A stretch of DNA of 37,814 nucleotides, from assembly GCA_938015925.1 (NCBI GenBank), contig CALLVY010000772.1, positions 1 through 37,814 on the forward strand, written 5' to 3'. The stretch's first letter is position 1. Every line of letters starts with the position of its first letter. The position numbers and the translations under genes are program-made. Source of the stretch: an uncultured Saprospiraceae bacterium (lineage in GTDB: Bacteria; Bacteroidota; Bacteroidia; Chitinophagales; Saprospiraceae). Shown here piece after piece: positions 11,452-27,928 of this stretch. The notes under the pieces were generated by a model. The model searched no databases and was not told the DNA's origin. It was given only the letters and a program-made list of their open reading frames with translations.

Positions 11452-12408
11452 TTATTTTATTTTTACCAATCGGTAGCTTTTGCTAAAGCTACCCGTGTTG
11501 ACTTGCGCGTAGTATACGCCAGTGGGCCAGTTGTCGGTATCCAATTCGATTTGATGAGCGCCAGCGCCTTGCTGCTTTGCTTCTTGGTGCAAGATTTTTC
11601 CGGTAGCATCAAAGACTTGAAATTCGAATGCAGCCGCTTCTTTTAATTCGAAAGGGAGGTGCAATTGGGAGTCGAATGGATTAGGTTGGAATTGTAAGGA
11701 CGTTAGGTTTTTTTCATTGGAGTGGAAGGGTAATTCTTCGCCTTCGTTTTCACCATCGAAAGGATCTATTATATCGAAAGGATTATCATCAATAATTGGT
11801 TCTTCAGCGAAACGGCAATCTGGCCAAACTGAAATTAGACTTCTATATACCCTAGGAGGAGTGGTTTCTCCTAATTCACATCCTGGAGGAGGGGTCTGAG
11901 TACCAAAAGAATGATCGAATACATGGCAAGGGAAAAAGCTCTTATGTGCGATGTAATCCCTTACAGGGTAAAAGGAATGGTAACCAGGGATGCTAGGGTG
12001 ATCTGTAACTAAAGTTCCAGTGTAACTAGGAGGTAGGGTGCTTTGATTGTCAAAAGACAATGAAAACCTCCATTCTATAATAGAGCGCCCGTCAATTTTC
12101 TCACCATAGTCTACAAATTCGTCAAAATATACCGGAATGGTTTCGGTCCCTTGGTTCTCTAGATGGTATCTTAAATACATTGGAACTAAACTTTGAAAAC
12201 TTTGACTCCCTGGTACAAATGGCTTTGTCATCCTTATGGAAAAGGTAATTTTTATTTCACAATTATCTGCAGGAGCTGAAAACCGCGCATCATCCTGAAC
12301 ATCCAGGATTTTTCCATTGTTCGCGGCGATATCCGTATTGAAAAGAGAAGAAGTCGTAAAAAGGAGTAAGAAAAAAAATTGTTTTAGTAAGATCTTCCTG
12401 GCGTTCAT
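11452..12408 (-). CDS. secreted T9SS protein of the CHAT module, paralog a
   Basis: A 318-residue secreted protein with signal peptide (residues 1-29). A shared family core begins NGKILDVQDDARF and contains a cysteine-bearing beta-rich region, a YPVRDY motif and FFPCHVFDHSFG ... PPGC. The C-terminal third is a T9SS type A sorting domain (FQPNPFDSQL ... WPTGVYYAQV ... YRLVKIK). It is a paralog of the gene at 15767-16756: nearly the same motifs recur, including 'NGKILDVQDDAR' and 'FFPCHVFD'. The function is not recognised; the architecture suggests a surface or released beta-sandwich protein. It lies downstream of the CHAT gene in the same direction but has its own promoter-like element and structured leader (12458-12653). 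Confidence 0.8.
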   Translation of the reverse strand: MNARKILLKQFFFLLLFTTSSLFNTDIAANNGKILDVQDDARFSAPADNCEIKITFSIRMTKPFVPGSQSFQSLVPMYLRYHLENQGTETIPVYFDEFVDYGEKIDGRSIIEWRFSLSFDNQSTLPPSYTGTLVTDHPSIPGYHSFYPVRDYIAHKSFFPCHVFDHSFGTQTPPPGCELGETTPPRVYRSLISVWPDCRFAEEPIIDDNPFDIIDPFDGENEGEELPFHSNEKNLTSLQFQPNPFDSQLHLPFELKEAAAFEFQVFDATGKILHQEAKQQGAGAHQIELDTDNWPTGVYYAQVNTGSFSKSYRLVKIK

Positions 12409-12624
12409 TATTTTGAAGTTTGAAGGTTTAAATAATCATTGTTTGCAAAAAAAAAGTACACCTTCCAGCCACAACCGGAAGGTGTCTCACAAATCATATT
12501 CAGAATAAAACCGGAGTCTTATATTTTTAACTCTAGGCACTTTACAGCAGGGCTGCAAGGCACCGTATGTTTTATTCTGAAAGTTTCTTTGATCGATACA
12601 AACTTCCTATGTCGCTTTTGGTAG
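12409..12624 (-). promoter_or_regulatory. structured 5' leader of paralog a
   Basis: About 216 nt between the promoter-like element and the start codon, closely similar to 16757-16968. On the minus-strand RNA it can form a 13-bp outer stem (12499-12511 with 12569-12581). This closes two inner hairpins (12514-12517 with 12530-12533; 12545-12548 with 12552-12555). A separate 9-bp hairpin follows (12458-12466 with 12477-12485) with loop GGUUGUGGCU. The last hairpin is about 50 nt before the ATG, too far to hide the ribosome site directly. Both copies keep the fold while the inner hairpin sequence changes, which argues for an RNA role. Confidence 0.6.
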
Positions 12625-12653
12625 AAAAGGTAATCGAGAATTCGATTTTTTTT
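12625..12653 (-). promoter_or_regulatory. composite promoter-like element, copy 1
   Basis: On the minus strand: eight A, an 11-nt spacer TCGAATTCTCG, then ATTACCTTTT. The same layout occurs at 16969-16997, 17371-17399, 26335-26365 and 27927-27956. TACCTTTT resembles the Bacteroidetes -7 box TAnnTTTG with its last base changed, but no -33 TTG is present; the A-tract takes that place. I infer a promoter for an alternative sigma factor. Confidence 0.6.
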
Positions 12654-12768
12654 ATAAAAAAGTGGGAAAAACGGTAATTCTTAGAATTTATCGTTCTTTG
12701 ATTCATACACGGGATTTGCCAGAGAACCAAGTTTATTAGTGGTTTCATTCCTATTTAATAGGATTATT

Positions 12769-15672
12769 TTATTTAGAAAATTTTCTAAAAGCAAAAAGCA
12801 ATAGGCCCAGGCTTAAAAGTATCCACCGCCAATTTCCACCCAGAAATCCAGTATGGAATTCCATCGCTTCGGCATTGCCTGACTGAACAAAAGCAGCCCA
12901 GTAATAAGGATGTGCAGTAGCCTTATCCGCAGTTTTTAGATGCTGAATTTTTGCTTGTTGTAAAGCTTGGTCCTTGGGGAGTCCGTCTTTGATATTTTTA
13001 TAAAAAGCAAACATCAAATCAGAGGTAGTACAGTCATCGACTGACCATAGACTCATCAGCGTACTTGGACAACCCGCCAGGATAAATCCTCTGGATAAAC
13101 TCATCACTCCTTCTCCTTTGATCAGTTTTCCTGAGCCTGTATTGCAGGCACTCAGTACTGCCAGATCTGCTTGTAAATTTAAATTGTGCAAATCTTTATT
13201 GGATAAAAAATCATCGGTAAAATGAATTTTGTTTTGCGCCAAATTATCTTCTCCTACACAAGCATGTGTAGCGAGGTGTACGATTCGATAATCGGAGGCT
13301 TCGGCTATAAAAGTCTGGCGGTCGGCCTGGCTGGCTAAAAGGGTACGGCCATTGAATAAGGCATTGATATTGTTTACTTCTTGTTGATTGCAATTCAAGG
13401 AAAGTAATTGGCCTCCATCACAGGCTCGCGTAGTACCTGCCATCTCTTTTCCAAAGGAAGGCGCAAAGCCAATAAAGCGTTTACTACTTTTAGCATTTCT
13501 GTTTTTAGAATGATTAAGTAAAAGGGAGGCAGAATAATTATAACTGATGGCATATTGATTTTGCAGATAAGCGAAAGTATGGTCATAGAAATCGGTAACC
13601 TCCGCTGCGGGCGCTTTTTCCAATAATAATTCAAAAGGCAAATAGGCCAAAAAATCATCGGGGATAATAATCAATCGTTTGATTGCTTTGGGGATCAAAT
13701 CAAGCGCAGGGCGAATCAATTGTTGGCTCAATTGCCAACTGGATTTGGAGAAACTTTGACATTCTGCCAAGAACGATTCTGGTACTGGCGCTTGTGTGAT
13801 TAGTTGTCGAAGCTCAGTGATACTCTGGTCGAGATTGTCTGGCAATTCCAGCGGAATGATTTTTAGTTCCTTGCTGGTAATACAAAAAAGATAACTGTTT
13901 TCTGCCCCAATAAAATATTCTAAAATAGCACTGCTCGGATCGATTATTTTTTTGCGCAAGCTATGGGCATCGGCAACTTGTGTATTGTATTTGATGTCAT
14001 AATATTGAGGATAATCTTTTTCGAAATGTGCAATGACTTTTTGATACTGTTGCTTCAATTCAAAAAGTTTGTTTTCCCATGTTTTGATTTTGTCAAGATT
14101 TTGATTTCCTTTTTTCTGCTTTATTTTGTTGATCTGTTTTTCATAAACAGCGATGTCGAGCCGCAATTGTTTTTCTTTTTCGAGTTCTTCTTCTGGGATG
14201 CCTCCGCTAAATTTAGCATCCGCTTCCTGTAATGATTCAAGGAGTAAGATGGCTTTGTTTTGTTCTGCAAAAGCAAAAGCTTTGTCGAGGTAATGCGCCT
14301 TCCCCGTGACGGTGTTTAGATCCAATGCTGTTTTTATCCCTCCTTCGTAAATGGGGAGCGCTTTTTGAGCCAATAATTCTTTGGAACCTTGTGCCAGAAA
14401 ACTTTGTCGAAGTTTTTGAATGAGTTGCGTTGCATATTCATAATTGTCAAAAGAAGCTTGAAGGTGTTTGAGTTCTTTTGTCTGCTGATATTTGGCGTAA
14501 TAAGCTTGTCCTTTATTCGCAATGATTTCCATTCCCTTGCGGATAGAAATAAAATTATTGATCGGCGGATTGACGTAAAGCGAAGAATCCGAAAAATCAA
14601 AAGCTAAAAAAATAAGTGCTTGTTGATAGGCTTCAATTGCTTCGTCCTGCTTGTTTAAAAGAAAATAAGTTTCTCCAACTTGCTTGAGATTATGAGCTTT
14701 GGAATAATGTTTTTCGTATTTGCGGTATTTGCCAAGTCCAATATTGTGTGCCTCTTGGTAAGCGTCTAAAGCTTTTTTATAATTGGCGGTTTGGCGGTGT
14801 AGATCACCAAGGACTTCATAGCTTTGCATTCTTCTGGAAGAGTATTCTCCCTGATCCAATTGGATGACTTGGTCGATATAGTAATTGGTACTATCTGCAT
14901 TGTTTTCCTGCAAAAATATTTTGGCCAAACTTTGATAGCAATAGACGATGCTCTTGGTCACCACGGAGCCCGTAGGCATGCCTTTTTGCTTGACAATATT
15001 TAGAAAAGTATGGTAACTCTCTTTTGCTTTTTTTAATTGCTTCATGTCTCTAAAGCAATGGCCTTTAAAAAGAATAGAGCGAGCGGTTTCAAAATGCTGT
15101 AAGCCATAGCTTTCTAACTGTAGTTGAATGGCTTTGTCGTAGTAATTGATGGCTTGTTGATAATCCCCCATGCGCCTAAAATTGGAGCCGAGATTGGAAT
15201 AAGAAATGGCGATAGAATTATTATCTGCCTCAATCTCAAAATCCACCGCCAAGGATCTTTGATAATAATCTTGTGCCTGTTCGTAGTAGCCGATTTGTCG
15301 CAAGAAAATACCATAGTTGTTGAGGACTTGGGAGTAGTAAGCATTTTTCTTGCCCAGGTGTTTTTCGGTGAGGGCAATGGCTTCTAAGGAAGTCTTTTTA
15401 AATTGATCGTAATCGCCAATCTGATAATAGTATTGACTGAAGCCATTGGTGCATTGGATGTATTGTTCCCAAGCTCCAATTCGCTCAAAATAAGGTTGGG
15501 CTTCCTGGTGGTAGATTAGAAAACTATCCAGATTTTGCAAGAGAATGGCATCCGCTTTTTGCAATAATTGGTGTCCAATAATAGAATCAGAGGAATGGTT
15601 TTCGGTTTGAGTGAAAGCCAGTGCACTGTAGAGAAACAGGCATAGGAAGCTTATGATTTTTAGTTGGTGCAT
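12769..15672 (-). CDS. TPR-CHAT (caspase-like) protein A, membrane-anchored
   Basis: A 967-residue protein. A signal peptide (residues 1-21) is followed by about ten tetratricopeptide repeats (roughly 30-420), a charged coiled-coil-like segment (about 490-560), then a CHAT domain (about 600-930). The caspase-type dyad is visible: His803 in VHLATHAC and Cys843 in DLAVLSACNTGSGK. A C-terminal hydrophobic helix (about 948-963, ILLSLGLLLFAF) and a basic tail follow, predicting a periplasmic body anchored in the inner membrane. CHAT domains belong to the caspase/separase protease clan; some members are site-specific proteases with TPR partners. The gene lies between two paralogous secreted T9SS genes and is divergent from a sigma/anti-sigma-like pair. 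The ATG at 15672 is clear. The substrate is unknown; the neighbouring TPR anti-sigma is the first candidate by inference. Confidence 0.9.
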   Translation of the reverse strand: MHQLKIISFLCLFLYSALAFTQTENHSSDSIIGHQLLQKADAILLQNLDSFLIYHQEAQPYFERIGAWEQYIQCTNGFSQYYYQIGDYDQFKKTSLEAIALTEKHLGKKNAYYSQVLNNYGIFLRQIGYYEQAQDYYQRSLAVDFEIEADNNSIAISYSNLGSNFRRMGDYQQAINYYDKAIQLQLESYGLQHFETARSILFKGHCFRDMKQLKKAKESYHTFLNIVKQKGMPTGSVVTKSIVYCYQSLAKIFLQENNADSTNYYIDQVIQLDQGEYSSRRMQSYEVLGDLHRQTANYKKALDAYQEAHNIGLGKYRKYEKHYSKAHNLKQVGETYFLLNKQDEAIEAYQQALIFLAFDFSDSSLYVNPPINNFISIRKGMEIIANKGQAYYAKYQQTKELKHLQASFDNYEYATQLIQKLRQSFLAQGSKELLAQKALPIYEGGIKTALDLNTVTGKAHYLDKAFAFAEQNKAILLLESLQEADAKFSGGIPEEELEKEKQLRLDIAVYEKQINKIKQKKGNQNLDKIKTWENKLFELKQQYQKVIAHFEKDYPQYYDIKYNTQVADAHSLRKKIIDPSSAILEYFIGAENSYLFCITSKELKIIPLELPDNLDQSITELRQLITQAPVPESFLAECQSFSKSSWQLSQQLIRPALDLIPKAIKRLIIIPDDFLAYLPFELLLEKAPAAEVTDFYDHTFAYLQNQYAISYNYSASLLLNHSKNRNAKSSKRFIGFAPSFGKEMAGTTRACDGGQLLSLNCNQQEVNNINALFNGRTLLASQADRQTFIAEASDYRIVHLATHACVGEDNLAQNKIHFTDDFLSNKDLHNLNLQADLAVLSACNTGSGKLIKGEGVMSLSRGFILAGCPSTLMSLWSVDDCTTSDLMFAFYKNIKDGLPKDQALQQAKIQHLKTADKATAHPYYWAAFVQSGNAEAMEFHTGFLGGNWRWILLSLGLLLFAFRKFSK

Positions 15673-15713
15673 TTTCTCTCATTAATTAAGCCAAAGCATA
15701 GGAAAAACGAAGT

Positions 15714-15748
15714 CCAGCTCCAAGGAATTGATGATCCATTGGAGCTGG
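15714..15748 (-). terminator. intercistronic hairpin between paralog b and CHAT A
   Basis: A 10-bp stem (15714-15723 with 15739-15748) with a 15-nt loop lies 19 nt after the stop of paralog b and about 40 nt before the CHAT start. No strong T-tract follows. It may attenuate or process the transcript, so that the first gene is made in excess over CHAT A. It shares the CTCCAA/TTGGAG core with the hairpins at 8212 and 11397. Confidence 0.5.
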
Positions 15749-15766
15749 TATTGGAGGTCAGTTGGT

Positions 15767-16756
15767 TTAGTCTATTTTTACCAATCGATAGCTTTGGATG
15801 GCGTTTCCAGATTGAGCTTTAGTGTAATAGACACCAGCGGGCCAGGTGTCGGTATTCAATACGATTTGATGAATGCCAGCGTCTTGTGGATTCGACTCTT
15901 GGTAGATGATTTTTCCCGTGGCATCAAAGACTTGGAAGTCTACTTTTGCAGCTTCTTTTAATTCAAAAGGTACGTGTAGTTGAGTGCTAAAAGGGTTGGG
16001 GTAAATTTGTAAAGCACTTAGGTTGTGGTCATTGGTGTGGAATGGATTCTCATCTCCGTTGAAAGGATTGGCGTCACCCGGGATCTGATTTTTTGGCTCA
16101 TAGGGTTCTACAAGAATTCCACCTTTAGGCCCTCCTGGTTCTGGTTCTGGCTCTATGTCAAAACAAGGTTTGCAATGGGTGTCAAATTCATTCGAATAAG
16201 CTGGGATGTAATTGCCAGTGATGTCGCATCCTGGGGCAGGCGATTGTTGACCAAAACTAAGGTCAAAAACATGGCAAGGGAAAAAACTATCTTCCTCCTT
16301 ATAATCTTCTATCGGATAAGGAATAAAACCACCATTAGTTGACCTTGGATTCTCGGTAAGTAAAGCCAAGGAGTAGTGTTCAGGGAGTTCGTCTTGGTTG
16401 CCATTGCTAACATCAATAGAAAAATGGACTCGATATTCTACTATAGGAGTATTATCGACCGTATTACCATAATCGTTGAATCCATCAATATCTACATCAA
16501 GGGTTTCTTCCATTCCTTCTCCGAAATTATAGTAAAAATACATTGGAGCTAATTCGTTAGAATTGGCATTTATAGGTTGAGCCATCTTGATCCTTATGAA
16601 GAAATTCAATTCACAATCTTCATTACAGTAGAGTCTAGCATCATCTTGGACATCCAGGATTTTGCCATTTACATTACTGGCATAACTATAAAAAGAACAA
16701 GTAGTAAGGAGGGCTAATAGCAGAGTCTGCTTAGCTAAGATCGTCAGGTAATTCAT
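15767..16756 (-). CDS. secreted T9SS protein of the CHAT module, paralog b
   Basis: A 329-residue secreted protein, paralog of 11452-12408. It has a signal peptide (to about residue 27), the NGKILDVQDDARLY motif, an FFIRIKMAQPIN stretch, YPIEDYKEEDSFFPCHVFDLSFG, PAPGCD, a low-complexity Pro/Gly/Glu linker (EPEPEPGGPKGG), and a C-terminal T9SS type A sorting domain (YPNPFSTQLH ... WPAGVYYTKAQ ... YRLVKID). The function is not recognised. It is the first gene of the leftward arm, followed by the CHAT gene after 94 nt, and is preceded by a structured leader and promoter-like element. Likely exported to the cell surface. Confidence 0.8.
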   Translation of the reverse strand: MNYLTILAKQTLLLALLTTCSFYSYASNVNGKILDVQDDARLYCNEDCELNFFIRIKMAQPINANSNELAPMYFYYNFGEGMEETLDVDIDGFNDYGNTVDNTPIVEYRVHFSIDVSNGNQDELPEHYSLALLTENPRSTNGGFIPYPIEDYKEEDSFFPCHVFDLSFGQQSPAPGCDITGNYIPAYSNEFDTHCKPCFDIEPEPEPGGPKGGILVEPYEPKNQIPGDANPFNGDENPFHTNDHNLSALQIYPNPFSTQLHVPFELKEAAKVDFQVFDATGKIIYQESNPQDAGIHQIVLNTDTWPAGVYYTKAQSGNAIQSYRLVKID

Positions 16757-16968: not shown

Positions 16969-16997
16969 AAAAGGTAATCCAGAATTCTATTTTTTTT
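16969..16997 (-). promoter_or_regulatory. composite promoter-like element, copy 2
   Basis: On the minus strand: eight A, the 11-nt spacer TAGAATTCTGG, then ATTACCTTTT, 213 nt before the start of paralog b. The spacer differs at only two positions from copy 1. Confidence 0.6.
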
Positions 16998-17370: not shown

Positions 17371-17399
17371 AAAAAAAATCTCATTTTTGATTACCTTTT
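17371..17399 (+). promoter_or_regulatory. composite promoter-like element, copy 3 (sigma A)
   Basis: Eight A, the 11-nt spacer TCTCATTTTTG, then ATTACCTTTT, ending 35 nt before the sigma gene start. That distance suits a promoter with a short leader and suggests autoregulation of the sigma factor. The stretch from 16998 to 17370 holds nothing else I can recognise. Confidence 0.6.
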
Positions 17400-17434: not shown

Positions 17435-18016
17435 ATGAAACAAATTTCGGATGCCGAAGTGATTGAAATGCTGAAATCCTTGGATGAACAAAGGAAAAAA
17501 GCGGGATTGACTTATCTCCATCAACGGGTCTATAAAACAGTGCGGAGCTTTATTCTTAGGAGTAGAGGGAGCGAACAAGATGCAGAAGATTTTTTTCACG
17601 AAGGTTTGATTGCTTTTTATATGATGGCCCGAAAAGACAAACTAGGGCCGGAGGTCAATGTAGAAGCTTACTTATATACGATCTGTCGAAACATGTGGAA
17701 TAAAAACATTATGAAAAAACCACGTCAATTAGAATTGTCTGAAGAATACAATAATATCGTTTCTGAAGATTTACAATTGAAGACCTTGCTGAGTAATGAA
17801 CGTAGTGTTTTGATCAAACAATTATTAGAGAGTCTTGGAGAAGAGTGCCATAAGATTTTGGTTTATTTCTATTTTGATCGATTGAGCATGAAAGAAATTG
17901 TTGTTCAATTAAATATCTCTGGAGAAGCAGTAGCAAAAAATAAGAAATCGAATTGTATGAAAAAACTGAGAGCCATCGTATTAGATTCTCCTTTTTATAA
18001 TAACCTTTTGAAGTAA
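17435..18016 (+). CDS. ECF-type RNA polymerase sigma factor A
   Basis: A 193-residue sigma-70 family protein with regions 2 and 4 only. Region 2 spans about residues 27-92 (AEDFFHEGLIAFY, then NVEAYLYTICRNMW) and binds core polymerase and the -10 region. Region 4 spans about 128-182 (LLESLGEECHKIL ... SMKEIVVQLNISGEAVAKNKKSNCMKKL), a helix-turn-helix for the upstream promoter element. It aligns without gaps through about residue 190 with the sigma factor at 26399-26989. The next gene, 27 nt downstream, encodes a single-pass protein with an anti-sigma-like cytoplasmic tail, so the pair likely forms a membrane-controlled switch. The promoter-like element before it recurs before the nearby secreted-protein genes, the expected targets. 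Confidence 0.9.
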   Translation: MKQISDAEVIEMLKSLDEQRKKAGLTYLHQRVYKTVRSFILRSRGSEQDAEDFFHEGLIAFYMMARKDKLGPEVNVEAYLYTICRNMWNKNIMKKPRQLELSEEYNNIVSEDLQLKTLLSNERSVLIKQLLESLGEECHKILVYFYFDRLSMKEIVVQLNISGEAVAKNKKSNCMKKLRAIVLDSPFYNNLLK

Positions 18017-18043: not shown

Positions 18044-18775
18044 ATGCAAGAGTTTACAAACGAAAAAATCGAAAAATACCTGCTCGGTCAGTTAAAAGGA
18101 GGAGACTTGGCCAATTTTGAAAGCCAACTCAAAACCAATACTGCGCTGGCTGAAGAAGTGAACGTACAACGGCTACTAATGGAGCAAGTAGAAAGTTTGG
18201 GCGCACTGGAAATGAAAGAGCAATTATTGGAAATCAAAAAAGACCTGGAAGGAAAGCGTAAACTCATTATTCGACGGATGTTGGGATTAAGTGCCGCTGC
18301 TGCCATCGCCTTACTTGTTTTTGGCGTACAGTTTTTAGGAACGGATGCTCCCTCCCGCGATTTGTTTGGCGACTATTATGCCGCCTATGAATTGCCCTTT
18401 ACTGCTCGATCTGTAGAAGGAGAAGAATTGCTTGGACAAGCAGGTGTTTATTATTTGGGAAAGGATTATAAAAAAGCACTTCCAGTCTTAGAGAAAATAC
18501 TTGTGGAAAATCCTAAAGATTCAAGAAGTCGATTGGCGCTGGGGATTAGCCAAATGGAAATGGCGAAAGAACAAGAAGCTTTGCAAACTTTTGCAGGGCT
18601 GATCGAAAATAAGGATCCACTTTACCTGGATCAAGCACGATGGTATACCGCTTTGCTTTATCTAAAAAGTGATAAAAAAGAAGCTTGTCGAAAACAATTG
18701 ATGTTGTTGATTGGAAACCCTCGAGCGCCTCATTATACACAAGCGCAAGACTTATTAAAAAAGCTAAAAAACTAA
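18044..18775 (+). CDS. single-pass TPR protein, predicted anti-sigma factor A
   Basis: A 243-residue protein. Residues 1-78 are cytoplasmic and begin NEKIEKYLLGQLKGGDLANFE, the pattern found at the start of many Bacteroidetes anti-sigma factors ('iekYLlGeLs..E...FE'), though no zinc-binding His-Cys-Cys is present. One membrane helix follows at about residues 80-99. The remainder is a periplasmic TPR domain of about three repeats (LLGQAGVYYLGKDYKKALPVLEKIL, RLALGISQMEMAKEQEALQTF, and so on). It is translationally close to the sigma gene (27 nt). It shares length (243 aa) and topology with 27197-27928. I infer that it holds the sigma factor at the membrane and that its periplasmic TPRs meet the CHAT protein or another signal. 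Confidence 0.75.
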   Translation: MQEFTNEKIEKYLLGQLKGGDLANFESQLKTNTALAEEVNVQRLLMEQVESLGALEMKEQLLEIKKDLEGKRKLIIRRMLGLSAAAAIALLVFGVQFLGTDAPSRDLFGDYYAAYELPFTARSVEGEELLGQAGVYYLGKDYKKALPVLEKILVENPKDSRSRLALGISQMEMAKEQEALQTFAGLIENKDPLYLDQARWYTALLYLKSDKKEACRKQLMLLIGNPRAPHYTQAQDLLKKLKN

Positions 18776-20873: not shown

Positions 20874-20968
20874 ACTGGTGGAGATCTATACGATCATTAG
20901 TCAAGCTGCTGTAAACTTTGTTTGCAGCGGCTTTTGTTTTTCCCTTTTTCCCAAAAGCAAAAAAAACG

Positions 20969-20978
20969 ATACATTTGC
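20969..20978 (+). promoter_or_regulatory. TAnnTTTG -7 box before the TIR gene
   Basis: TACATTTG matches the Bacteroidetes -7 consensus about 23 nt before the chosen ATG. It would exclude the upstream TTG at 20922 as a start, since that codon lies before the expected transcript start. No convincing -33 box at normal spacing. Confidence 0.5.
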
Positions 20979-20999
20979 AAGATCACAATTAGAACGCCA

Positions 21000-21923
21000 A
21001 TGTCAAATTCAAGACCTGCTGTAAATGTATACCTCGCCTATGTACCCGAGGATGAAGACTTGCTCAAGCGACTTCGCTTGCAGCTCAAAGCGATAGAACG
21101 CATTGGTCTGGTCGATGCCTGGCACGATGGAGAAATCACGGCAGGTGCCGATCGGGAAAAGGCGATGATGGAAGCTTTACATCAATCTCCGATCATTCTA
21201 CTTTTGGTTTCTAGCGCCTTTATTGCTTCAGAGTTTGCTTATGAACAGGAGGTGAAAACTGCGATGGAATTGCATGCCGCAGAGAAGGCAAGGGTTGTAC
21301 CTGTTATTCTCAAGCCTTGTATGTGGAGGGCTACTTCTTTTGGGAAATTGAACCCTTGTCCAGCCAACGGTATTCCTGTCATGGACGATCATTGGCAAAG
21401 TGTAGATCATGCTTTTATGGAAGTGGCGGAGCAGGTTTTGAAAATGATAGAAGAACCTAAAGCGGAGGAGTCTATGGTGGAAGTACCTGTTGCCAATTCT
21501 GAAAAGGTGCCTTCTGCGGAAGCGCCGCCGGCCGCCGCTCAATTTTCTTTTCCCACGATCCTCCTCAATGGCCAACACTGGATGGCAGGAGATTTAGAAG
21601 GTTTATCACCGGAGGGAAAACGAGTCATTCATTTTGACTTTAAAACAGCCTTGAGTAGTTGTCCTCCGGGCTGGCGATTGCCAAGCAAGCAAGAATGGCA
21701 AAATTTGTCAGAAGACCAGGTCGCTCAATTGAATTTGAATTTCAATGGTGTGCTAGATCGAGGTTCCCTTCGCGATAAGGATCGGAAATTGTATTATTGG
21801 ACTAGTGATCGATCCTTTGGTGGCGAAGCCAGGTGTTTTGAAAAGATGGTCGATGGATCTGGTAGAATGGAATCCCGTTATGACCATTGGGGACTTTCCT
21901 GTCGCTGTATAAAAGAAGATTGA
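21000..21923 (+). CDS. TIR domain - FISUMP domain fusion protein
   Basis: A 307-residue protein without signal peptide. Residues 7-145 form a TIR domain of the bacterial type: VNVYLAYVPEDEDLL at the start, GLVDAWHDGEITAG, SPIILLLVSSAFIASEFAYEQEVKTAM with Glu84 at the position of the catalytic glutamate of NAD-cleaving TIRs, and RVVPVILKPCMW. A Glu/Pro/Ala-rich linker (about 150-182) leads to a FISUMP (Fibrobacter succinogenes major paralogous) domain at 188-307 with CPPGWRLPSKQEWQNL, YYWTSD and HWGLSCRCIKED. FISUMP domains are usually on secreted proteins; here the protein is predicted cytosolic. TIR proteins often make or break NAD in defence and signalling. The ATG at 21000 is chosen over the TTG at 20922. 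It converges on CHAT gene B with only 8 nt between stops. Confidence 0.85.
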   Translation: MSNSRPAVNVYLAYVPEDEDLLKRLRLQLKAIERIGLVDAWHDGEITAGADREKAMMEALHQSPIILLLVSSAFIASEFAYEQEVKTAMELHAAEKARVVPVILKPCMWRATSFGKLNPCPANGIPVMDDHWQSVDHAFMEVAEQVLKMIEEPKAEESMVEVPVANSEKVPSAEAPPAAAQFSFPTILLNGQHWMAGDLEGLSPEGKRVIHFDFKTALSSCPPGWRLPSKQEWQNLSEDQVAQLNLNFNGVLDRGSLRDKDRKLYYWTSDRSFGGEARCFEKMVDGSGRMESRYDHWGLSCRCIKED

Positions 21924-21931: not shown

Positions 21932-24913
21932 TTATCTTTCCTCGGTTTTCGAATTCTTTTTTCTTAGAAAAACCCAAAAGACAAAACCCGCCAGCAAAAG
22001 GCCAATCATCCAAGGATTGAGCCAGTCCGAAAAAGGTTTGTTTCTTAAAGCGGAAATATTTCCAGTCTGTACAAAACCTGCCCAGTAATAAGGATGTGAT
22101 TTTATTTTATCAGAAGTGTTTTTTAAGAAATTTATTTTTGCTTGTTGCAATGCTTCGTCCTTATCCAAACCCTTGTAAAGTTGTTGGTAAAAAGCAATCA
22201 TCAAATCTGAAGTGCTGCAATCATCTACAGACCACAGACTCATCAAAGAACTAGGGCAACCAGCCTGCGTAAAACTTCGGGCAAGACTAAGAACGCCTTC
22301 TCCTTTTGCCATTTTTCCTGATCCCGTATTACAGGCGCTAAGCACCACGAGGTCGGCCTTTAAGCGAAGATTGTGTAAGTCAAAACCATTGATCGCATTT
22401 TCTTTAAAATGAATTTTACTGAGGTCGGCATAGTTTTTATCGATACAGGCATGGGTCGCTAAGTGTATAATTTGGTAGTCTGGAGCTTGTTCGATAAATG
22501 CGGTCTTGCTGGCTTGGGCATCTTTTTTGACGACTCCCCCCCAAAGACTTTGGATAGTTTCTACTTCTTTTTGATTGCAAAGTAAAGGGGATAAAGCAAA
22601 ATCGGAACAAGATCGACTGGCTGTTTTAATATTACTTTTAAAAGTAGGGGCAAAGCCAATAAATTTGTTGGGATTGTCTTGCGGTTCTTTTTGGGAACCC
22701 GTTTTAAATAAGGTGGCGGAATAGTTGTAACTGATTCGGAAATCATTGAGTAAATAAGACAAATGGTCTGGCGAAAAATCTGCACTTGCCGGAGCTTTTT
22801 GTTGGAGCAATAGTTCAAAAGGCAAATAGTTGGTGTACTCGTCAGGGATGAAAATTAGCTGCTGGGTAGCAGGGGAGAGTTGCGCAAGAACGTCCTGTAA
22901 TAATTCTTCGTAAAGCTGATTTGCACGGATAGTGAAGTCTAGGTAAGCCTGTAAGAAATCAGTAGAGGCAGGAGGCTCGATGATGGAGTTCCGAAGGTCG
23001 TTAATACTCAAGGAGAGTTGGGTCGAACTTGGCCACTGATGTAGAACTATATCTTGCGGCGTGATACAGAAAACATAATTGTGCTCACTGCCATGGAAAT
23101 ATTCAATCAAAGCACTGTTGCTGCTAAGTGTTTTTTCTTGCAAATCTGCAACCGAGGTAAGTTGAGTATTGAATTTTAATTGATAATACCGGGGATAATT
23201 TTTTTCAAAACGGGCAATCAGTTTTTTGTGTTCTTCTTGTAAATCAAACAATCGATTTTTCCATTCTTTTTGTTCCGCTAAGTTATCCTGTTCTGTTTGT
23301 TGCGCCTGACTCAATTGGTTTTTAAGAAAATTAATTTGAGCATTATAAGTTTGTTCTTTTAGCAATAAAGAATCTGGAATATCTCCATGATTCAGTGCTT
23401 GGTTTTGTTGGATGGATTCCAGTAAAAGAATGGCTTTGCTGCTCTCTGAAAAATAGAAAGCATCCGCTAAATAGTTTTTATCTTTTTGGGATTGATACAA
23501 TAGTTGGGCGACCTGAATGGCTTCTTCAAAGATCGGTTTTACCTTTCCTGAAAGGTGGAGTTTAGAGCCTTCTGCCGAATAAGTTTGCCGGATTTGTTGG
23601 ATGATCTGAGTAGCGTAGTGATAGGTGGCCAAAGCCAATTCCAGGTTTTCTTTTTTTTCTTTCTCCTGGTGACTAAGTGCAATCTGATAAAAGCTTTTTC
23701 CTTTTTGGCGAATGATATCCAATGCGGTATTTAAATCCAATAAGTTTTCAAGAGGTGGCATTGTGGCCAAATCCGTTGGATTGAAATCTAAGGTATTCGT
23801 TAGGAGTGCTTTTTGGAAAAAAGAGAGCGCCGAATCTAGTTTCCCTTGTTGTTGATAAAATTTTCCGATGTCTAAAAAACTCTTGGCTATTTCCTGGTGT
23901 TTTTCAAAGTCTTTGTATTGCTCAAGCACCATTTTGTTGCACTGATTCAACAAGGCAAATTGCTGCTCCCAATCTTTATTGTGTGCATGAATTTTAGAAA
24001 GCATTCGATAGCTAAGATGGGCATCTTTAAATGATTTTCCTTTTTGCAGAGCCAATGCCTTGTCGATATAGTTTAGTGCTTTAGGGATTTGTTGTTTTTG
24101 TAAAAAAAGATCTGCCATGTTTTGATAGCAAAGGAGTTTGACCGGGTCTAAATAATCTCGTTCTTGTTTTATTTGATTGCCTGCCTTGATGCTTTTTTCG
24201 AAATAGACGAAGGCGCTATCCAATTGGTTTTTATTTTTTAAAGCTTTGGCCCAATCGAAAAGACATCCAGGGATATTTTTCGGACTGGTTTCAGTACTAA
24301 ATTTTTGGTATAATTCCAATGCTTTGGGAAAGTAACGGAGCGCATTATCGAAGTCGCCTTGATCTTGATAGCATTTGCCAATATTGTGATAACTCATGGC
24401 GAGAGATTCCTTATAAGCTTTCGTGGGAGGAATAAGGTTTAGCGATTGCATATAGTATTTAATGGCTAGCCGATAATTTCCATTTTGATGATAAAGCGTA
24501 GCCATATTATTGAGCGCAATGCTGTGGTTTTCTCCTTTATCATTGGGCAGAAATTCTTTGGCTTTTTGAATAGCTTGTTGTACTGTTAGCGTATAGTTCG
24601 GATAGTTGCCATGGTAATTGTAGACCACAGAAAGAGAATTATAACCCTCGACATATTTTTCCCAGTTTTCTGCGGCTTTAAAGTAATCAATGGCAGCTAA
24701 GACTTTTTGCTCATTTGCCGCCTCGGTTGAATCTGTACCCACCTTAGCCAAAAGAGCGTCTCCTAGATTGGAGAGGCTATCCGCTTGGGTCATGGGAGGG
24801 TTTTGTGCAGGAAGTATGGAGAAGAAGAAAAGGAAAAAAATAACCAACAGAAAAGTTAAAGATTTAACTCTTCTGTTGGTTGATTCAAGGAATATCGGTG
24901 TAGTTAGACTCAT
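21932..24913 (-). CDS. TPR-CHAT (caspase-like) protein B, membrane-anchored
   Basis: A 993-residue paralog of CHAT protein A. An N-terminal hydrophobic segment (about residues 22-37, LLVIFFLFFFSILPAQ) serves as signal peptide. About ten TPRs follow (50-430), then a coiled-coil-like Gln/Lys-rich segment (about 530-585) and the CHAT domain (about 620-945). The dyad is His821 in IHLATHAC and Cys861 in DLVVLSACNTGSGK, the same 40-residue spacing as in A. A C-terminal membrane helix (about 965-985) and a basic tail follow. The ATG at 24913 is preferred over a TTG at 24928. It starts 47 nt after the stop of the secreted T9SS gene upstream, likely in one transcript. Predicted location: periplasmic, anchored in the inner membrane. 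Confidence 0.9.
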   Translation of the reverse strand: MSLTTPIFLESTNRRVKSLTFLLVIFFLFFFSILPAQNPPMTQADSLSNLGDALLAKVGTDSTEAANEQKVLAAIDYFKAAENWEKYVEGYNSLSVVYNYHGNYPNYTLTVQQAIQKAKEFLPNDKGENHSIALNNMATLYHQNGNYRLAIKYYMQSLNLIPPTKAYKESLAMSYHNIGKCYQDQGDFDNALRYFPKALELYQKFSTETSPKNIPGCLFDWAKALKNKNQLDSAFVYFEKSIKAGNQIKQERDYLDPVKLLCYQNMADLFLQKQQIPKALNYIDKALALQKGKSFKDAHLSYRMLSKIHAHNKDWEQQFALLNQCNKMVLEQYKDFEKHQEIAKSFLDIGKFYQQQGKLDSALSFFQKALLTNTLDFNPTDLATMPPLENLLDLNTALDIIRQKGKSFYQIALSHQEKEKKENLELALATYHYATQIIQQIRQTYSAEGSKLHLSGKVKPIFEEAIQVAQLLYQSQKDKNYLADAFYFSESSKAILLLESIQQNQALNHGDIPDSLLLKEQTYNAQINFLKNQLSQAQQTEQDNLAEQKEWKNRLFDLQEEHKKLIARFEKNYPRYYQLKFNTQLTSVADLQEKTLSSNSALIEYFHGSEHNYVFCITPQDIVLHQWPSSTQLSLSINDLRNSIIEPPASTDFLQAYLDFTIRANQLYEELLQDVLAQLSPATQQLIFIPDEYTNYLPFELLLQQKAPASADFSPDHLSYLLNDFRISYNYSATLFKTGSQKEPQDNPNKFIGFAPTFKSNIKTASRSCSDFALSPLLCNQKEVETIQSLWGGVVKKDAQASKTAFIEQAPDYQIIHLATHACIDKNYADLSKIHFKENAINGFDLHNLRLKADLVVLSACNTGSGKMAKGEGVLSLARSFTQAGCPSSLMSLWSVDDCSTSDLMIAFYQQLYKGLDKDEALQQAKINFLKNTSDKIKSHPYYWAGFVQTGNISALRNKPFSDWLNPWMIGLLLAGFVFWVFLRKKNSKTEER

Positions 24914-24960
24914 GGCCTGTTTTGACAAATTTAGGATTAAGAAGTAGACATTTTTCTACT

Positions 24961-25854
24961 TTAATTTCCCAATTTAATTATTTTATAAGATTTTCCATTA
25001 TTGACTCGGCAATAATAAAAACCTGTAGCCAATTCCTGCGTATCAATCCTTAAGGTATTACTGATCTGATCTCCAAGGATTTGGTGGTAAACAACACGTT
25101 TCCCGGAAACATTGAATAATTCTACCTGTAATGCGGTTTCAGGAGTACGATCAAAAGTAATTAAAAACTCTTCTTGAAATGGATTTGGAGAGATTTGAAA
25201 ATCAGGAGTCAATAGATTTGGAGAGGCTGTAATAGAAGGAGCGGCCAGTCTATTGCTTTGAGCTTCCGTATAATTACAGCAAATATCTTTTTGGCCAGTG
25301 ATCAAAGAAGTAGGCGCAATAGGGTTTCCATACTCGTCGAAAAAAAGATATTCCGGGAATAGAGTTCCTTTGTAATCAGCGACTGGATAGTCGGTGAAAT
25401 TTTCTCCTGGTGGTTCTGTGCCTTCCTGATTTTGAGCGGGGGTTTCTAAATTGATGGAATAATTTAAGATACCAGGCGTACTTGAGGCTTGACAGAGTTC
25501 TGTATAATCGATTTTGTGATTAAAGGTCGCCTGGAAAACAATGTTTCCATTGTCATTAACCATGACCAGGTCGGTATTAGAAATTCGATTGCTTCTACCA
25601 ACCTCTAGTCCTCCAAAATCGTAAGAGTAGTATAAGGAAGGGAAGGGGCTAAGGTCATCTTTGCCTACAATAACGGTAACATCGACAGACAAAATATAAT
25701 CTCCATTGTCTGCAATTATTATACAGCCGTTGTTGTCCATAGGATTGCTCCAATTGGTGACTACGATTTTGGGGCCAAGATTGGCGGCAAAAGCGGTATT
25801 AAAACTTAAAAAGCATAGGAATAGGAGTGAAATAAAGGTTTGTTTGTTTTTCAT
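24961..25854 (-). CDS. secreted T9SS protein of the CHAT module, paralog c
   Basis: A 297-residue secreted protein with a signal peptide (MKNKQTFISLLFLCFLSFNTAFAAN), a beta-rich body and a T9SS type A sorting domain from about residue 218 (FQISPNPFQEEF ... TGFYYCRV ... YKIIKLG). It diverges from paralogs a and b but keeps landmarks in the same order: an N-terminal KIVVT strand, a 'YYSYDFGG' strand, and DYPVADYKGTLFPEYLFFDEYG, which matches their YPV/IxDY...FFPCHVFD region; a Cys-Cys pair follows. The FPCH cysteine is absent. It is the first gene of the leftward arm of module B and is placed as paralog b is in module A. Confidence 0.75.
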   Translation of the reverse strand: MKNKQTFISLLFLCFLSFNTAFAANLGPKIVVTNWSNPMDNNGCIIIADNGDYILSVDVTVIVGKDDLSPFPSLYYSYDFGGLEVGRSNRISNTDLVMVNDNGNIVFQATFNHKIDYTELCQASSTPGILNYSINLETPAQNQEGTEPPGENFTDYPVADYKGTLFPEYLFFDEYGNPIAPTSLITGQKDICCNYTEAQSNRLAAPSITASPNLLTPDFQISPNPFQEEFLITFDRTPETALQVELFNVSGKRVVYHQILGDQISNTLRIDTQELATGFYYCRVNNGKSYKIIKLGN

Positions 25855-25984
25855 GATTCAGTATTTATTCTTGGTGTAATTAAATAATAGTTGCTAAGGC
25901 GTGCATCCGAAAGGATACTTGCTTAGCGAATAAAGTAATAGTTAATTTTAGGTGGTGTTATAATTCCTAGTTCCTAAGAATTAA
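25855..25984 (-). promoter_or_regulatory. structured 5' leader of paralog c
   Basis: On the minus-strand RNA, a 9-bp hairpin with loop GAA (25962-25970 with 25974-25982) follows the ATTACCTTTT core directly. A second hairpin has an outer stem GCUAAG/CUUAGC (25893-25898 with 25922-25927) and an inner stem GUAUCC/GGAUGC (25903-25908 with 25913-25918). In both hairpins one pair is G-U on the minus strand only, so the minus RNA is the folded one. The sequence is not related to the leaders of paralogs a and b. Confidence 0.5.
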
Positions 25985-25994
25985 AAAAGGTAAT
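25985..25994 (-). promoter_or_regulatory. ATTACCTTTT core, copy without A-tract
   Basis: On the minus strand, ATTACCTTTT about 131 nt before paralog c. The A7-8 tract seen in the other copies is missing, so this may be a weaker promoter. The rest of 25995-26334 holds nothing recognisable. Confidence 0.4.
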
Positions 25995-26334
25995 AGCTTT
26001 ATTCCATTTAATATCAAATGAATAGATTCTTGTGAAGTATAATAAAAGTCTAAATATCTGGTTTTGACCATAGAGATGTTGAAATTATCAATTAGTCGTA
26101 AAATTTAATAGAGTCCGTAATTAATTGTTGATAATTGGTATTTTGGGCAGTGATTGTGTATATGGGGAGTTCGGTATAGAGGAGTTTAGGAGACGCGGAC
26201 TAAAAATAACCCGGAAGTCCTAAGGTGCAATATATGGAAATTAGAAGAATAAGGTTTAAAAAAATAAATTAACCTTGCTTAGGTGGATGTTTTGAGAGAA
26301 ATATCAACAAAAATCTTATGCGTAAGGATAAAAG

Positions 26335-26365
26335 AAAAAAATAGCTCCAATTGTTATTACCTTTT
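26335..26365 (+). promoter_or_regulatory. composite promoter-like element, copy 4 (sigma B)
   Basis: Seven A, a 14-nt spacer, then ATTACCTTTT, ending 33 nt before the sigma B start. The placement is almost the same as for sigma A (35 nt). Confidence 0.55.
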
Positions 26366-26398
26366 TAACATTGAGCATAACATACAATTAGATAGTAG

Positions 26399-26989
26399 AT
26401 GGAAAGACAGGCTAGTCAATTAATTATCGAGCAGTTACAGTCGAAAGATAAAAAGGAGAATGCGAAAGCGGTTCGTTATCTTTTTAGCTGTATACAAGAT
26501 CAGGTGGCTCATTTTATTTTGAGAAATAATGGAAAATCAGAGGATGTAGATGATATCTTTCAGGATGGATTTGTAGCCCTTTTTAAGCTGGTAAGAGACA
26601 AGCGTCTGGATAAAGTAGAAAATGTAGAAGCTTATCTATATTCTATCTGTCGAAATCTCTGGCTCAAAAAAATAAAAAAAGAATCTCGAAACATTTCGCT
26701 TACGGAAGAGCAAGAGAATATTGCGGTGCCGGAAGTGTCCATTTCTACTTTGATCAGTCAAGAGCGAAAAGAAGCTTTGGAAACTTTATTCAAAGCATTG
26801 GGAGGAAGTTGTCATCGGGTATTGATCTATTATTATTACGAAAGGTTGAGTATGGTGGAAATCGCGGAGCAGATGAAATTTGCGAGTGCCGCCGTAGCTA
26901 AAAACAAAAAATCTTCTTGTCTCAAAAAATTAAAAAACCTCATCATGGAATCTAACCATTATCGAGAATTGCTAAGCCACTTAGAGTAA
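26399..26989 (+). CDS. ECF-type RNA polymerase sigma factor B
   Basis: A 196-residue paralog of sigma factor A. Region 2 covers about residues 27-92 (VDDIFQDGFVALF, NVEAYLYSICRNLW) and region 4 about 128-182 (ALGGSCHRVLIYYYYERLSMVEIAEQM ... AVAKNKKSSCLKKL). The regions align residue for residue with sigma A, and the helix-turn-helix part AVAKNKKSxCxKKL is nearly the same, which predicts similar upstream promoter recognition and possible cross-talk. It is divergent from the secreted protein and CHAT B, and is followed after 207 nt by the second anti-sigma-like gene. That gap is much longer than the 27 nt in module A and holds no recognised promoter or terminator. Confidence 0.9.
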   Translation: MERQASQLIIEQLQSKDKKENAKAVRYLFSCIQDQVAHFILRNNGKSEDVDDIFQDGFVALFKLVRDKRLDKVENVEAYLYSICRNLWLKKIKKESRNISLTEEQENIAVPEVSISTLISQERKEALETLFKALGGSCHRVLIYYYYERLSMVEIAEQMKFASAAVAKNKKSSCLKKLKNLIMESNHYRELLSHLE

Positions 26990-27196
26990 GACGTGTGCAA
27001 GCCGACAAAGAAGATTTGTGAAGTACGAACTAAAATGATATTTTAAAAATAAGCAATTCGAAAGTTTTTTACACCGTGTATTTAGTTGGCAAGCATCGTA
27101 AAAAAAAATTTAGAATAGATAAGTACCAGCCCTTGTAAAGGAATAGCTACCACAATCTCACCCTTTCAGAGGCGGATACCTAAAACAGGATATGTT

Positions 27197-27928
27197 ATGA
27201 AAGATTTAGATAAAATCATCGATTTTCTCAGCGGACGTTTGAGAAAAGAAGAACAAGAAGTCTTTGCGAAAGAAAAGGCGGAATACCCGGAGTCTAAGGA
27301 AGATGCCTTGGCGCATCAAGCTGTTTTGAATTACATCGACCAATCTGGAGATCTCGAAACCAAAGACTGGTTGAAAACAGTATTGCCAAAATATCAAGAA
27401 AAGAAAAATAAGCCTGGACGATCTATTTTAATGTGGCTCATTCCAGTCACGGCTGCTGCCGCGATGCTACTCTTGTTTTTTCTCCCTTCCATGCAACCTG
27501 AATTATCTTCGGTCCAACAGGTAGCCAATTATCTAGAACCTTACGAATTGTCTTTTGGAGATCGGGGCCAATCAGCAGACGTCCTGCTAGAAGCAGGGCA
27601 AGCTTATCAAACAAAAGAATACGATGCAGCAATTCCTTTACTGCAACAAGCCATTGAGGAAAGTCAAGATGGGAAATACCGCTTGGCACTAGGGATTAGT
27701 CTCCTGGAAGTCGGAAAAAGCGCCCCAGCGATTGAAAACTTTCAAGACCTAATAAGTAATGCTGATCCAATATACACGGAACATGCCCAATGGTATATGG
27801 CCTTAGCTTATCTTCAACAAAATAATCCAAATGCAGCGGCACCTCTTCTCCAGATTTTAGCCGCCAATCCCAAAGCGTTTAACCACAGCAAAGCGAAGAA
27901 CTTACTCACCGAAAAAATATTTTTCTAA
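27197..27928 (+). CDS. single-pass TPR protein, predicted anti-sigma factor B
   Basis: A 243-residue paralog of the protein at 18044-18775. The cytoplasmic part (1-75) starts MKDLDKIIDFLSGRLRKEEQEVF, a membrane helix lies at about 77-97, and the periplasmic part has TPRs (VLLEAGQAYQTKEYDAAIPLLQQAI, RLALGISLLEVGKSAPAIENF, AQWYMALAYLQQNNPNAAAPLLQ). The segment just outside the membrane (YLEPYELSFGDRG) matches YYAAYELPFTARS in copy A, a conserved stretch that could be the cleavage or contact site for the CHAT protein; that last point is inference. The anti-sigma role rests on position next to a sigma gene, topology and N-terminal pattern; no zinc-finger residues are seen. Confidence 0.75.
   Translation: MKDLDKIIDFLSGRLRKEEQEVFAKEKAEYPESKEDALAHQAVLNYIDQSGDLETKDWLKTVLPKYQEKKNKPGRSILMWLIPVTAAAAMLLLFFLPSMQPELSSVQQVANYLEPYELSFGDRGQSADVLLEAGQAYQTKEYDAAIPLLQQAIEESQDGKYRLALGISLLEVGKSAPAIENFQDLISNADPIYTEHAQWYMALAYLQQNNPNAAAPLLQILAANPKAFNHSKAKNLLTEKIFF

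Follow-up and report, generated by a model that had tools for sequence, protein, structure and literature searches.

A separase-like CHAT protein as candidate periplasmic site-1 protease for ECF anti-sigma factors of Bacteroidota

We analysed a stretch of 37,814 nucleotides (contig CALLVY010000772.1 of assembly GCA_938015925.1, from an uncultured Saprospiraceae bacterium; "the window" below means this whole stretch) that carries two diverged copies of a gene module. Each module encodes an extracytoplasmic function (ECF) sigma factor, a single-pass membrane protein with tetratricopeptide repeats (TPRs) that resembles an anti-sigma factor, a TPR protein with a CHAT protease domain (TPR-CHAT), and a secreted protein with a type IX secretion system (T9SS) sorting domain. 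Our computations establish the gene set and its linkage, the topology signals of the proteins, a conserved site in the linker of the anti-sigma-like protein, the covariation of that site with a single CHAT residue, and an upstream element shared by the operons. We consider it likely that the TPR-CHAT protein is a periplasmic, separase-like site-1 protease for ECF anti-sigma factors, cutting them at a linker Arg.

In the mechanism that we propose, the ECF sigma factor would be held by the cytoplasmic N-terminus of the TPR anti-sigma factor, a binding that we infer. A signal reaching the TPR superhelix of the CHAT protein would wake a separase-like Cys protease at the outer face of the inner membrane, and this protease would cut the anti-sigma factor once, in the linker that lies exposed between membrane helix and periplasmic TPRs. 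The predicted scissile bond joins an Arg (R122 of the module A protein, R123 of the module B protein) to a small residue that follows it, and CHAT residue E765, probably together with D880, would bind the Arg. Loss of the TPR cap would lead to site-2 cleavage and release of the sigma factor, which would then transcribe, from TTACCTTTT promoters, both its own operon and that of the secreted protein and CHAT, giving positive feedback.

Results

The linker Arg of the anti-sigma-like protein covaries with one CHAT residue

In a first set of 65 pairs of anti-sigma-like protein and CHAT protein, with the linker residue typed by a small motif rule, a single CHAT column was conspicuous: the position of E765 (module A numbering) held Glu in 48 of 51 Arg pairs (3 gaps), in 4 of 5 Lys pairs and in 0 of 6 Met pairs. 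We recorded a prediction before new data were gathered: Arg or Lys with Glu, Met without it. The new set came from 60 further loci, selected with a profile of Met-type CHATs among its matches in 53 class genomes, with same-genus near relatives thinned by hand, and comprised 35 pairs. By residue, Arg stood with Glu in 27 of 28 pairs, one Lys stood without it, and Glu was absent with Met (4/4), Ala and His. The recorded prediction was thus correct for 27 of 29 basic pairs, the misses being L192 and L222, and for 4/4 Met pairs.

For the 100 pooled pairs, the linker motif read by eye was replaced by the residue aligned opposite R122 in a profile alignment (raw rule). A corrected rule moved eight anti-sigmas to another class by visual inspection when their CHAT residue was already known, which leaves the raw rule as the unbiased one. 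Under it we counted Arg/Glu 76, Arg/Ala 1, Arg/gap 2, other/Glu 5, other/not Glu 15 and other/gap 1; that is, Arg goes with Glu in 76 of 77 readable pairs, and without Arg, Glu is absent in 15 of 20. Four of the five non-Arg sites that come with Glu have Lys at or next to the site (L110, L145, L084 and L143); the fifth, in L086, has Ser. Sister systems lacking the Glu often have Met at the site, followed by Gly or Ser.

We then asked how specific the association is on a phylogeny of 95 CHAT domains (IQ-TREE quick tree, column 765 left out), on which the Glu/not-Glu state changes 8 times on the best tree and at least 3 times on supported branches. A Pagel-type likelihood test of correlated change, run with our own script on the same tree and with low-variation or gap-rich columns left out, gave E765 a likelihood ratio (LR) of 44.6 under the raw rule and 42.2 under the corrected rule. 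Among 313 other CHAT columns tested under the corrected rule, the best were S841 (16.0), F928 (15.6), D880 (15.4) and D916 (13.9), with a median of 2.8. In the reverse test, with E765 as the trait, R122 scored 44.6 and the best of 234 other anti-sigma columns 14.1, while the sigma columns (172 of 173 run), from proteins that share much of the same history, reached at most 11.3. The covariation is therefore specific to one residue pair, since E765 and R122 far exceed the control columns of the CHAT, anti-sigma and sigma proteins. The first-pass annotation had proposed that a caspase-clan protein takes the place of the usual site-1 protease; this covariation, together with the clustering of the three genes described below, supports the proposal on computational grounds.

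The Arg site lies in a conserved linker between membrane helix and TPRs

The fetched loci contained 129 sigma/anti-sigma gene pairs, selected by the anti-sigma being encoded directly after an ECF sigma factor, as it is in both modules of the window. Sequence and structural model show N-terminal helices, one membrane helix, a linker and TPRs in the anti-sigma-like protein, in line with the membrane anti-sigmas of regulated intramembrane proteolysis. In the AlphaFold2 (AF2) model of the module A protein (mean pLDDT 87.7, about 72 around R122), the linker forms a short helix and then a coil, with R122 in the coil. R122 is one of six columns conserved to at least 90% across 44 anti-sigmas, whose mean column identity is 22%. 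By profile alignment, Arg occupies the linker site in 79 of 100 CHAT-linked anti-sigmas, at a median of 26 residues from the membrane core (10-90% range 22-30). In 75 of these 79 it is followed directly by G, S, T or N, compared with 24% after any Arg in the same proteins.

The zinc anti-sigma domain zf-HC2 matched 2 of the 44 members at E <= 0.01 and did not match the window protein. A Foldseek search with the anti-sigma model returned common TPR or TPR-like proteins and no Csx30 name among the 50 matches listed, though such an absence does not exclude a relationship. The site-2 protease RseP exceeded its cut-off in 4 of 5 genomes, one of the same genus among them; the source assembly, which is 78% complete, gave weak matches only.

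The TPR-CHAT protein has a separase-like fold and signals for export

The module A protein (CHAT A) consists of an N-terminal hydrophobic stretch, a TPR superhelix, the CHAT domain and a C-terminal membrane helix that is borderline by a hydropathy rule. The top PDB matches of its AF2 model (pLDDT 86) were TPR-CHAT/Csx29 of Craspase, at Z 31.8 (7y83_D and 8eey_B). Separase came next among proteases at Z 27.9 for the whole chain, with TPR proteins ranking between; the protease domain alone matched separase at Z 27.6 and rmsd 3.2 over 315 residues. At the sequence level, a profile search of PDB sequences with the whole CHAT protein gave TPR matches throughout the 60 listed, and the CHAT part alone gave weak matches to Craspase chains (E 0.006-0.009) and one other CHAT protein at 1.6e-8.

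By a simple hydropathy rule, 86 of 92 complete CHAT proteins have an N-terminal hydrophobic stretch and 84 of 92 a C-terminal membrane helix. These topology signals suggest that the TPR-CHAT protein is exported and tethered at the outer face of the inner membrane. We also considered whether a lipoprotein signal replaces the C-terminal helix. By eye, the three source-genome CHATs that end without the helix have such a signal, but only 3 of the 7 pair-table CHATs judged by eye to lack the helix do, and the idea was dropped as a rule.

Helix 762-773 follows a strand of the CHAT core and has E765 close to its start; S841 precedes the catalytic Cys by two residues. D880 follows the catalytic Cys by 37 residues, and we take D2151 of separase to follow its own by 41. 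In separase, the Arg at P1 is read by D2151 (PMC9729208, excerpt), and in Trypanosoma brucei metacaspase D95 and D211 recognise basic substrates (PMC8283722, excerpt). By analogy, E765 may lie in the P1 pocket, and D880 and E765 are the likely Arg-reading pair. A weak profile alignment (E about 0.008) places, by manual count, a Glu of Craspase TPR-CHAT opposite E765. Craspase orthologues cut after Ala, Leu and Met (PMC11106740, excerpt), so a Glu at this position need not mean Arg at P1 in distant relatives.

A core of three genes recurs across Bacteroidota

ECF sigma factor, single-pass TPR anti-sigma-like protein and TPR-CHAT protein form a core that recurs across Bacteroidota. We scanned GTDB genomes with the CHAT alignment and took the best 80 of more than 578 candidate loci. 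Among these, an ECF sigma gene lies within 4 kb in 24 of the 53 loci that have at least 4 kb on both sides of the CHAT gene, and the density of sigma genes is 0.064 per kb within 4 kb of CHAT versus 0.016 per kb at 6-10 kb. In six relatives that carry several CHATs (CHAT at 95 bits or more, anti-sigma at E 1e-15 or better), the TPR anti-sigma lies within 5 kb of 24 of 71 CHATs where 1.5 are expected, and a CHAT lies beside 24 of 51 anti-sigmas, both counted among the matches listed.

Co-occurrence was examined in 129 class genomes, the source included, at a threshold of 1e-25. CHAT was found in 36, an anti-sigma match in 19 and both in 14. Setting aside matches confined to the TPR part, a choice made after the list had been seen, leaves 15 anti-sigma genomes, 13 of which carry CHAT (Fisher 7e-7; 2e-6 without the source genome). 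This anti-sigma is thus seldom found without CHAT (14/19, or 13/15); conversely, 22-23 of the 36 CHAT genomes are without it at 1e-25. Five genomes (G057, G061, G097, G100 and G130), each with 7 to 13 CHAT matches in about 2-3 Mb and without this anti-sigma at the same threshold, apparently hold a different CHAT expansion.

Gene order is variable: the 100 linked pairs divide into 37 convergent, 35 divergent and 28 same-strand ones. Since the core occurs in three orientations and the secreted gene is rarer elsewhere, the divergent layout with a secreted protein is a local form of a wider three-gene core. The first-pass annotation had named chance-level co-occurrence of its four gene families as the outcome that would speak against it. 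Sigma, anti-sigma and CHAT cluster above chance, so that outcome did not arise for these three. Its four-part unit was not supported, with a T9SS gene directly upstream of few sigma-linked CHATs elsewhere and the divergent layout in only 35 of 100 pairs.

Two modules in the window and further copies in the source genome

An open reading frame (ORF) check, a Pfam scan and pairwise comparison bore out the earlier description of two modules with shared order and orientation, and all nine ORFs listed then were recovered with the same positions and sizes. The rightward arm of each module carries the ECF sigma gene followed by that of a 243-aa protein (N-terminal part, one membrane helix, TPRs), and the leftward arm the secreted protein with T9SS sorting domain and a TPR-CHAT protein of about 1000 aa. 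Module A alone has a second secreted gene (S1), preceded by its own upstream element. Pfam found CHAT at 8.2e-58 (A) and 3.1e-59 (B) and sigma-70 regions in both sigma factors (some under the curated cut-off). It also identified TPRs in the 243-aa proteins and a T9SS sorting domain in each of S1, S2 and S3. The modules are diverged copies of each other, matching at 1e-50 for sigma, 2e-31 for the TPR protein and 6e-191 for CHAT. Their features, in window coordinates, are as follows.

11452..12408 (-), S1, second secreted protein of module A, 318 aa, T9SS type A sorting domain (Pfam)
12625..12635 (-), GATTACCTTTT, promoter-like element preceding S1
12769..15672 (-), module A TPR-CHAT, 967 aa (Pfam CHAT 8.2e-58; AF2 model pLDDT 86)
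13033..13035 (-), CHAT A D880 codon, near the separase D2151 position by spacing (putative equivalent)
13144..13146 (-), CHAT A C843 codon, predicted catalytic Cys (CHAT alignment, pair table)
13264..13266 (-), CHAT A H803 codon, predicted catalytic His (invariant in a 14-sequence alignment)
13378..13380 (-), CHAT A E765 codon, putative P1-pocket Glu (covariation with anti-sigma Arg)
15767..16756 (-), S2, module A secreted protein, 329 aa, T9SS type A sorting domain, directly upstream of CHAT
16969..16979 (-), GATTACCTTTT, promoter-like element preceding S2-CHAT
17389..17399 (+), GATTACCTTTT, promoter-like element preceding sigma A; TTACCTTTT starts 44 nt before the ATG
17435..18016 (+), module A ECF sigma factor, 193 aa (TIGR02937 2.5e-21)
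18044..18775 (+), module A single-pass TPR anti-sigma-like protein, 243 aa (AF2 model pLDDT 87.7)
18407..18409 (+), anti-sigma A R122 codon, proposed P1 residue (cut between R and S)
21932..24928 (-), module B TPR-CHAT, 998 aa; E788, H826 and C866 correspond to E765, H803 and C843 of A
24961..25854 (-), S3, module B secreted protein, 297 aa, T9SS type A sorting domain
25985..25995 (-), TATTACCTTTT, promoter-like element preceding S3-CHAT
26355..26365 (+), TATTACCTTTT, promoter-like element preceding sigma B; TTACCTTTT starts 42 nt before the ATG
26399..26989 (+), module B ECF sigma factor, 196 aa (TIGR02937 1e-20)
27197..27928 (+), module B single-pass TPR anti-sigma-like protein, 243 aa
27563..27565 (+), anti-sigma B R123 codon, proposed P1 residue (cut between R and G)
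27946..27956 (+), sixth window element TATTACCTTTT, just 3' of the module B anti-sigma gene, toward a T9SS protein at 28644

The window is one of the 905 contigs of the source assembly (7.5 Mb), in which a CHAT profile search found 17 places, 15 of them strong (at least 145 bits). We annotated the surroundings of the 15 CHAT places outside the window with profiles made from the window proteins. A matching ECF sigma gene lies within 6 kb of 10 of the 15 strong CHATs. Six of these copies have the canonical divergent layout (window A, window B, L023, L024, L026 and L028, the last on a contig that ends inside sigma, so that no anti-sigma is visible), and four are rearranged or interrupted by genes (L029, L021, L020 and L030). 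The other five strong CHATs (L018, L019, L022, L025 and L027) sit close to a contig end or on short contigs. On the far side of its CHAT, L019 shows a weak sigma match (3e-6), which we left uncounted, and L025 may be a true exception, because about 4.3 kb upstream of its CHAT is without sigma. With ten sigma-linked CHATs in the genome, the arrangement goes beyond chance, and module B is one of several copies and not a one-off duplicate.

A promoter-like element stands ahead of both arms in most canonical copies

The word TTACCTTTT occurs in 11 of 15 upstream regions taken from both arms of the canonical copies and L022, namely in 6 of 9 secreted-protein arms and 5 of 6 sigma arms; the best word in single-base shuffles averages 3.2. 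The upstream regions of S1 and S2 are near copies of each other and hence not independent. Ahead of the sigma genes the element starts 38-44 nt before the ATG. In a second genome of the same genus, it is present in 3 of 4 sigma arms, at 41-43 nt, and in 2 of 3 secreted arms. Within the window, the pattern KATTACCTTTT, fixed after a one-mismatch look (9 versus 1.9 expected), occurs 6 times versus 0.15 expected, ahead of S1, S2, S3, sigma A and sigma B and after anti-sigma B. This placement fits a sigma factor that would drive both its own operon and the secreted protein-CHAT operon. By eye, no -10 element could be fixed downstream of TTACCTTTT.

The element also stands just behind the anti-sigma gene in two genomes, at 27946-27956 (+) in the window and at 4817 (-) in L263 of G001. 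As it points there toward a gene whose product has a T9SS sorting domain or matches its profile, it may extend the regulon.

The secreted protein is a lineage-specific addition to the core

The gene directly upstream of a sigma-linked CHAT encodes a T9SS protein in 5 of 8 cases in the source genome, 3 of 29 in the GTDB loci and 3 of 50 in the relatives and class genomes, as judged with a sorting-domain profile built from the source genome, which distant members may escape. It is a lineage-specific extra to the core. Outside the sorting domain, S1 matches S2 (1e-35), and S3 matches the L024 secreted proteins (2e-10) and resembles S1/S2 weakly. The proteins fall into groups there (S1/S2; S3, L024 and L028; L022 and L026; L023 alone), a divergence that would fit recognition parts and is only suggestive.

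The strongest of the competing readings is a full four-part surface sensor with the secreted protein as obligate input, which in this genus is compatible with the protease reading. In the canonical copies, as in three loci of the second genus genome, the secreted gene immediately precedes CHAT, and most secreted-protein arms carry the upstream element. Its rarity beside the sigma-linked CHATs elsewhere, even allowing for members that the source-built profile may miss, speaks against an obligate role, and we regard such a sensor as possible but doubtful.

By eye, a late motif like [YF]P[VIL]xxY is seen in 8 of 9 secreted proteins (S1-S3, L022, L023, L024 with two, L026 and L028 being the set inspected). 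It loosely recalls the YYxPYP stretch before the anti-sigma Arg, without the Arg itself, and could conceivably act as a pseudosubstrate.

Evidence against cleavage at the linker Arg, and alternatives to it

Several results weigh against the protease reading. The anti-sigma function of the TPR protein is presumed from gene position and weak profile matches: the curated anti-sigma profile NF052375 matches 25 of the 44 members at E <= 0.01, at best 5.5e-9, and member 1 of the set scores 19 bits against a profile cut-off of 100. Of 23 anti-sigmas whose fetched stretch holds no CHAT, 14 likewise have Arg at the site and 3 have Lys. The site thus marks the anti-sigma family and not linked pairs alone, and its exclusivity to CHAT-linked anti-sigmas, which we had expected, was not found. 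Individual pairs break the rule: L086 combines Ser with Glu, Lys stands without Glu in L222 and L129, and L192, which aligns poorly, has by alignment Arg without Glu. (Its relatives L207, L173 and L189 hint, by eye, at a true site that is a Met just upstream.) The tree is weak, with 17 of 92 inner branches supported, and yields only 2-4 supported independent pairs. Under the raw rule these average 2.6 of 4 changing the same way, 1.4 showing no difference and 0.0 opposite; under the corrected rule, 1 of 200 random pairings holds an opposite pair. With so few independent pairs a sign test cannot reach significance. The placement of E765 in the P1 pocket is putative. In the six relatives, 47 of 71 CHATs are without such an anti-sigma within 5 kb, among the matches listed. 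As to the promoter, RATTACCTTTT occurs 51 times genome-wide versus 46 for a reversed control, so the word is not enriched and alone defines no regulon, and L023 and the four rearranged copies are without TTACCTTTT in the stretches searched.

Two other explanations keep the association and change its meaning. In the first, the CHAT protein would dock on the Arg motif as on a pseudosubstrate without cutting it, and the sigma factor would be freed by a conformational change or another protease. Covariation does reflect contact or shared selection rather than catalysis, and separase is itself held by an inhibitory partner, securin (PMC9729208, excerpt). However, all 97 of the 97 readable pairs keep the His and Cys of the dyad, for which a docking protein would have no use, and the preference for a small residue after the Arg resembles a scissile site. 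We judge docking without cleavage unlikely.

In the second, which seems to us about equally improbable, CHAT would cut another target, such as the secreted T9SS protein or an envelope protein, and merely share a regulon with the sigma factor, so that the covariation would be a lineage effect. Such a view draws on the CHAT gene lying on the same strand 3' of the secreted gene in this genus, on the many CHATs of the six relatives without a nearby anti-sigma and on the weakly resolved tree. On the same tree, however, E765 and R122 stand alone among the columns tested, while the sigma columns, with much the same history, go no higher than the LR given above; the rule recorded beforehand also held, with two exceptions, in the new class-wide set. 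An ordinary gene family grown by neutral duplication of neighbours, with no functional coupling, would account for several copies being paralogues of one another, yet it is very improbable given that clustering persists across three orientations and co-occurrence across the 129 genomes.

Relation to known systems

The first-pass annotation knew of no described system with this make-up, which was too strong: CRISPR-associated Craspase and a proposal in a review of group ECF54 come near, Craspase being the closest in components and logic. Craspase couples a TPR-CHAT protease to an ECF sigma factor through a cleaved inhibitor (PMC10028731, excerpt). Its components (Csx29/TPR-CHAT, Csx30 and CASP-sigma/RpoE) resemble ours in the fold of the TPR-CHAT protein, as the Z score above indicates, and in an inhibitor that binds the ECF sigma factor and is cut by the protease (PMC10028731 and PMC9729208, excerpts), as proposed here. 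Craspase orthologues have sites that are not conserved, between A and S, L and D, and M and K (PMC11106740, excerpt), whereas the present site is a conserved Arg before a small residue with a matching Glu. A Pfam scan of 19 window proteins gave no Cas match; no genome-wide or CRISPR-array search was made. Given that result, and a protease with export and membrane signals, we do not file the present set as Craspase. Craspase is RNA-activated and works in the cytosol, while the present protease and its proposed site lie, by their topology signals, outside the inner membrane.

In RseA/DegS/RseP-type regulated intramembrane proteolysis, the extracytoplasmic part of the anti-sigma factor is cut first. 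The present set shares with it a membrane-spanning anti-sigma-like protein encoded after the ECF sigma factor and, as proposed, a first cut in the outside part (PMC10028731, excerpt). It differs in that the site-1 candidate is a caspase-clan Cys protease instead of a PDZ serine protease or signal peptidase, and that the extracytoplasmic part consists of TPRs. The likeness to separase, securin and cohesin lies in the fold and in Arg at P1, which here is proposed; the present protease is, in contrast, bacterial and by its signals membrane-tethered, with a small residue following the Arg. Inspection of the anti-sigma linkers by eye, without a systematic test, did not reveal the separase motif EXXR.

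Group ECF54 has CHAT, subtilase or carboxypeptidase genes in its gene context, and proteolytic control has been proposed for it (PMC8999054, excerpt). A CHAT near an ECF sigma factor is common to both; the excerpt proposes that ECF54 acts without an anti-sigma factor, unlike the present pairs, which were selected to have one. Sigma factors also occur near caspase-like genes in other groups (PMC3501461 and PMC8195603, excerpts). Across open-licence PMC literature (subscription journals and preprints were outside the scope) we found Craspase, ECF54 and other caspase-sigma associations, and no periplasmic CHAT cutting an anti-sigma. The new and testable part is the residue pair R122/E765.

A class I anti-sigma domain is found near only 6% of Bacteroidetes ECF sigma factors (PMC7406223, excerpt), which leaves the control of most of them open. 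For a subset, the present set offers a candidate answer with a named enzyme, a named bond and a residue pair, and about 100 candidate enzyme-substrate pairs of matched specificity form a natural panel. If the proposal is right, a caspase/separase-clan protease would serve as a signalling switch outside the bacterial cytosol, and the wiring of Craspase, in which TPR-CHAT frees an ECF sigma factor, would be broader than CRISPR. More tentatively, one may imagine a Bacteroidota-wide signalling class in which separase-like periplasmic proteases with private substrate codes (a Glu pocket for Arg, an altered pocket for Met) gate families of ECF sigma factors, about ten lines per cell, and in which, in this genus, the T9SS protein of each line acts as its ligand or as a securin-like blocker, with its export reporting on the outer surface.

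Further observations in the window

C138 and C174 of sigma A are invariant in ten aligned sigma factors encoded near CHAT in the source genome. Between modules A and B, a TIR-domain protein with a weak Fibrobacter-major-like C-terminal stretch is encoded at 20922-21923 (+). It adjoins the gene of a putative lipoprotein of 245 aa at 20085-20822 (+), which has a lipobox-like start by eye and no Pfam match at 1e-4. A second local duplication, at 4460-8157 (+), comprises two adjacent T9SS proteins of arylsulfotransferase-like type; their DNA repeats are 70-76% identical in short patches.

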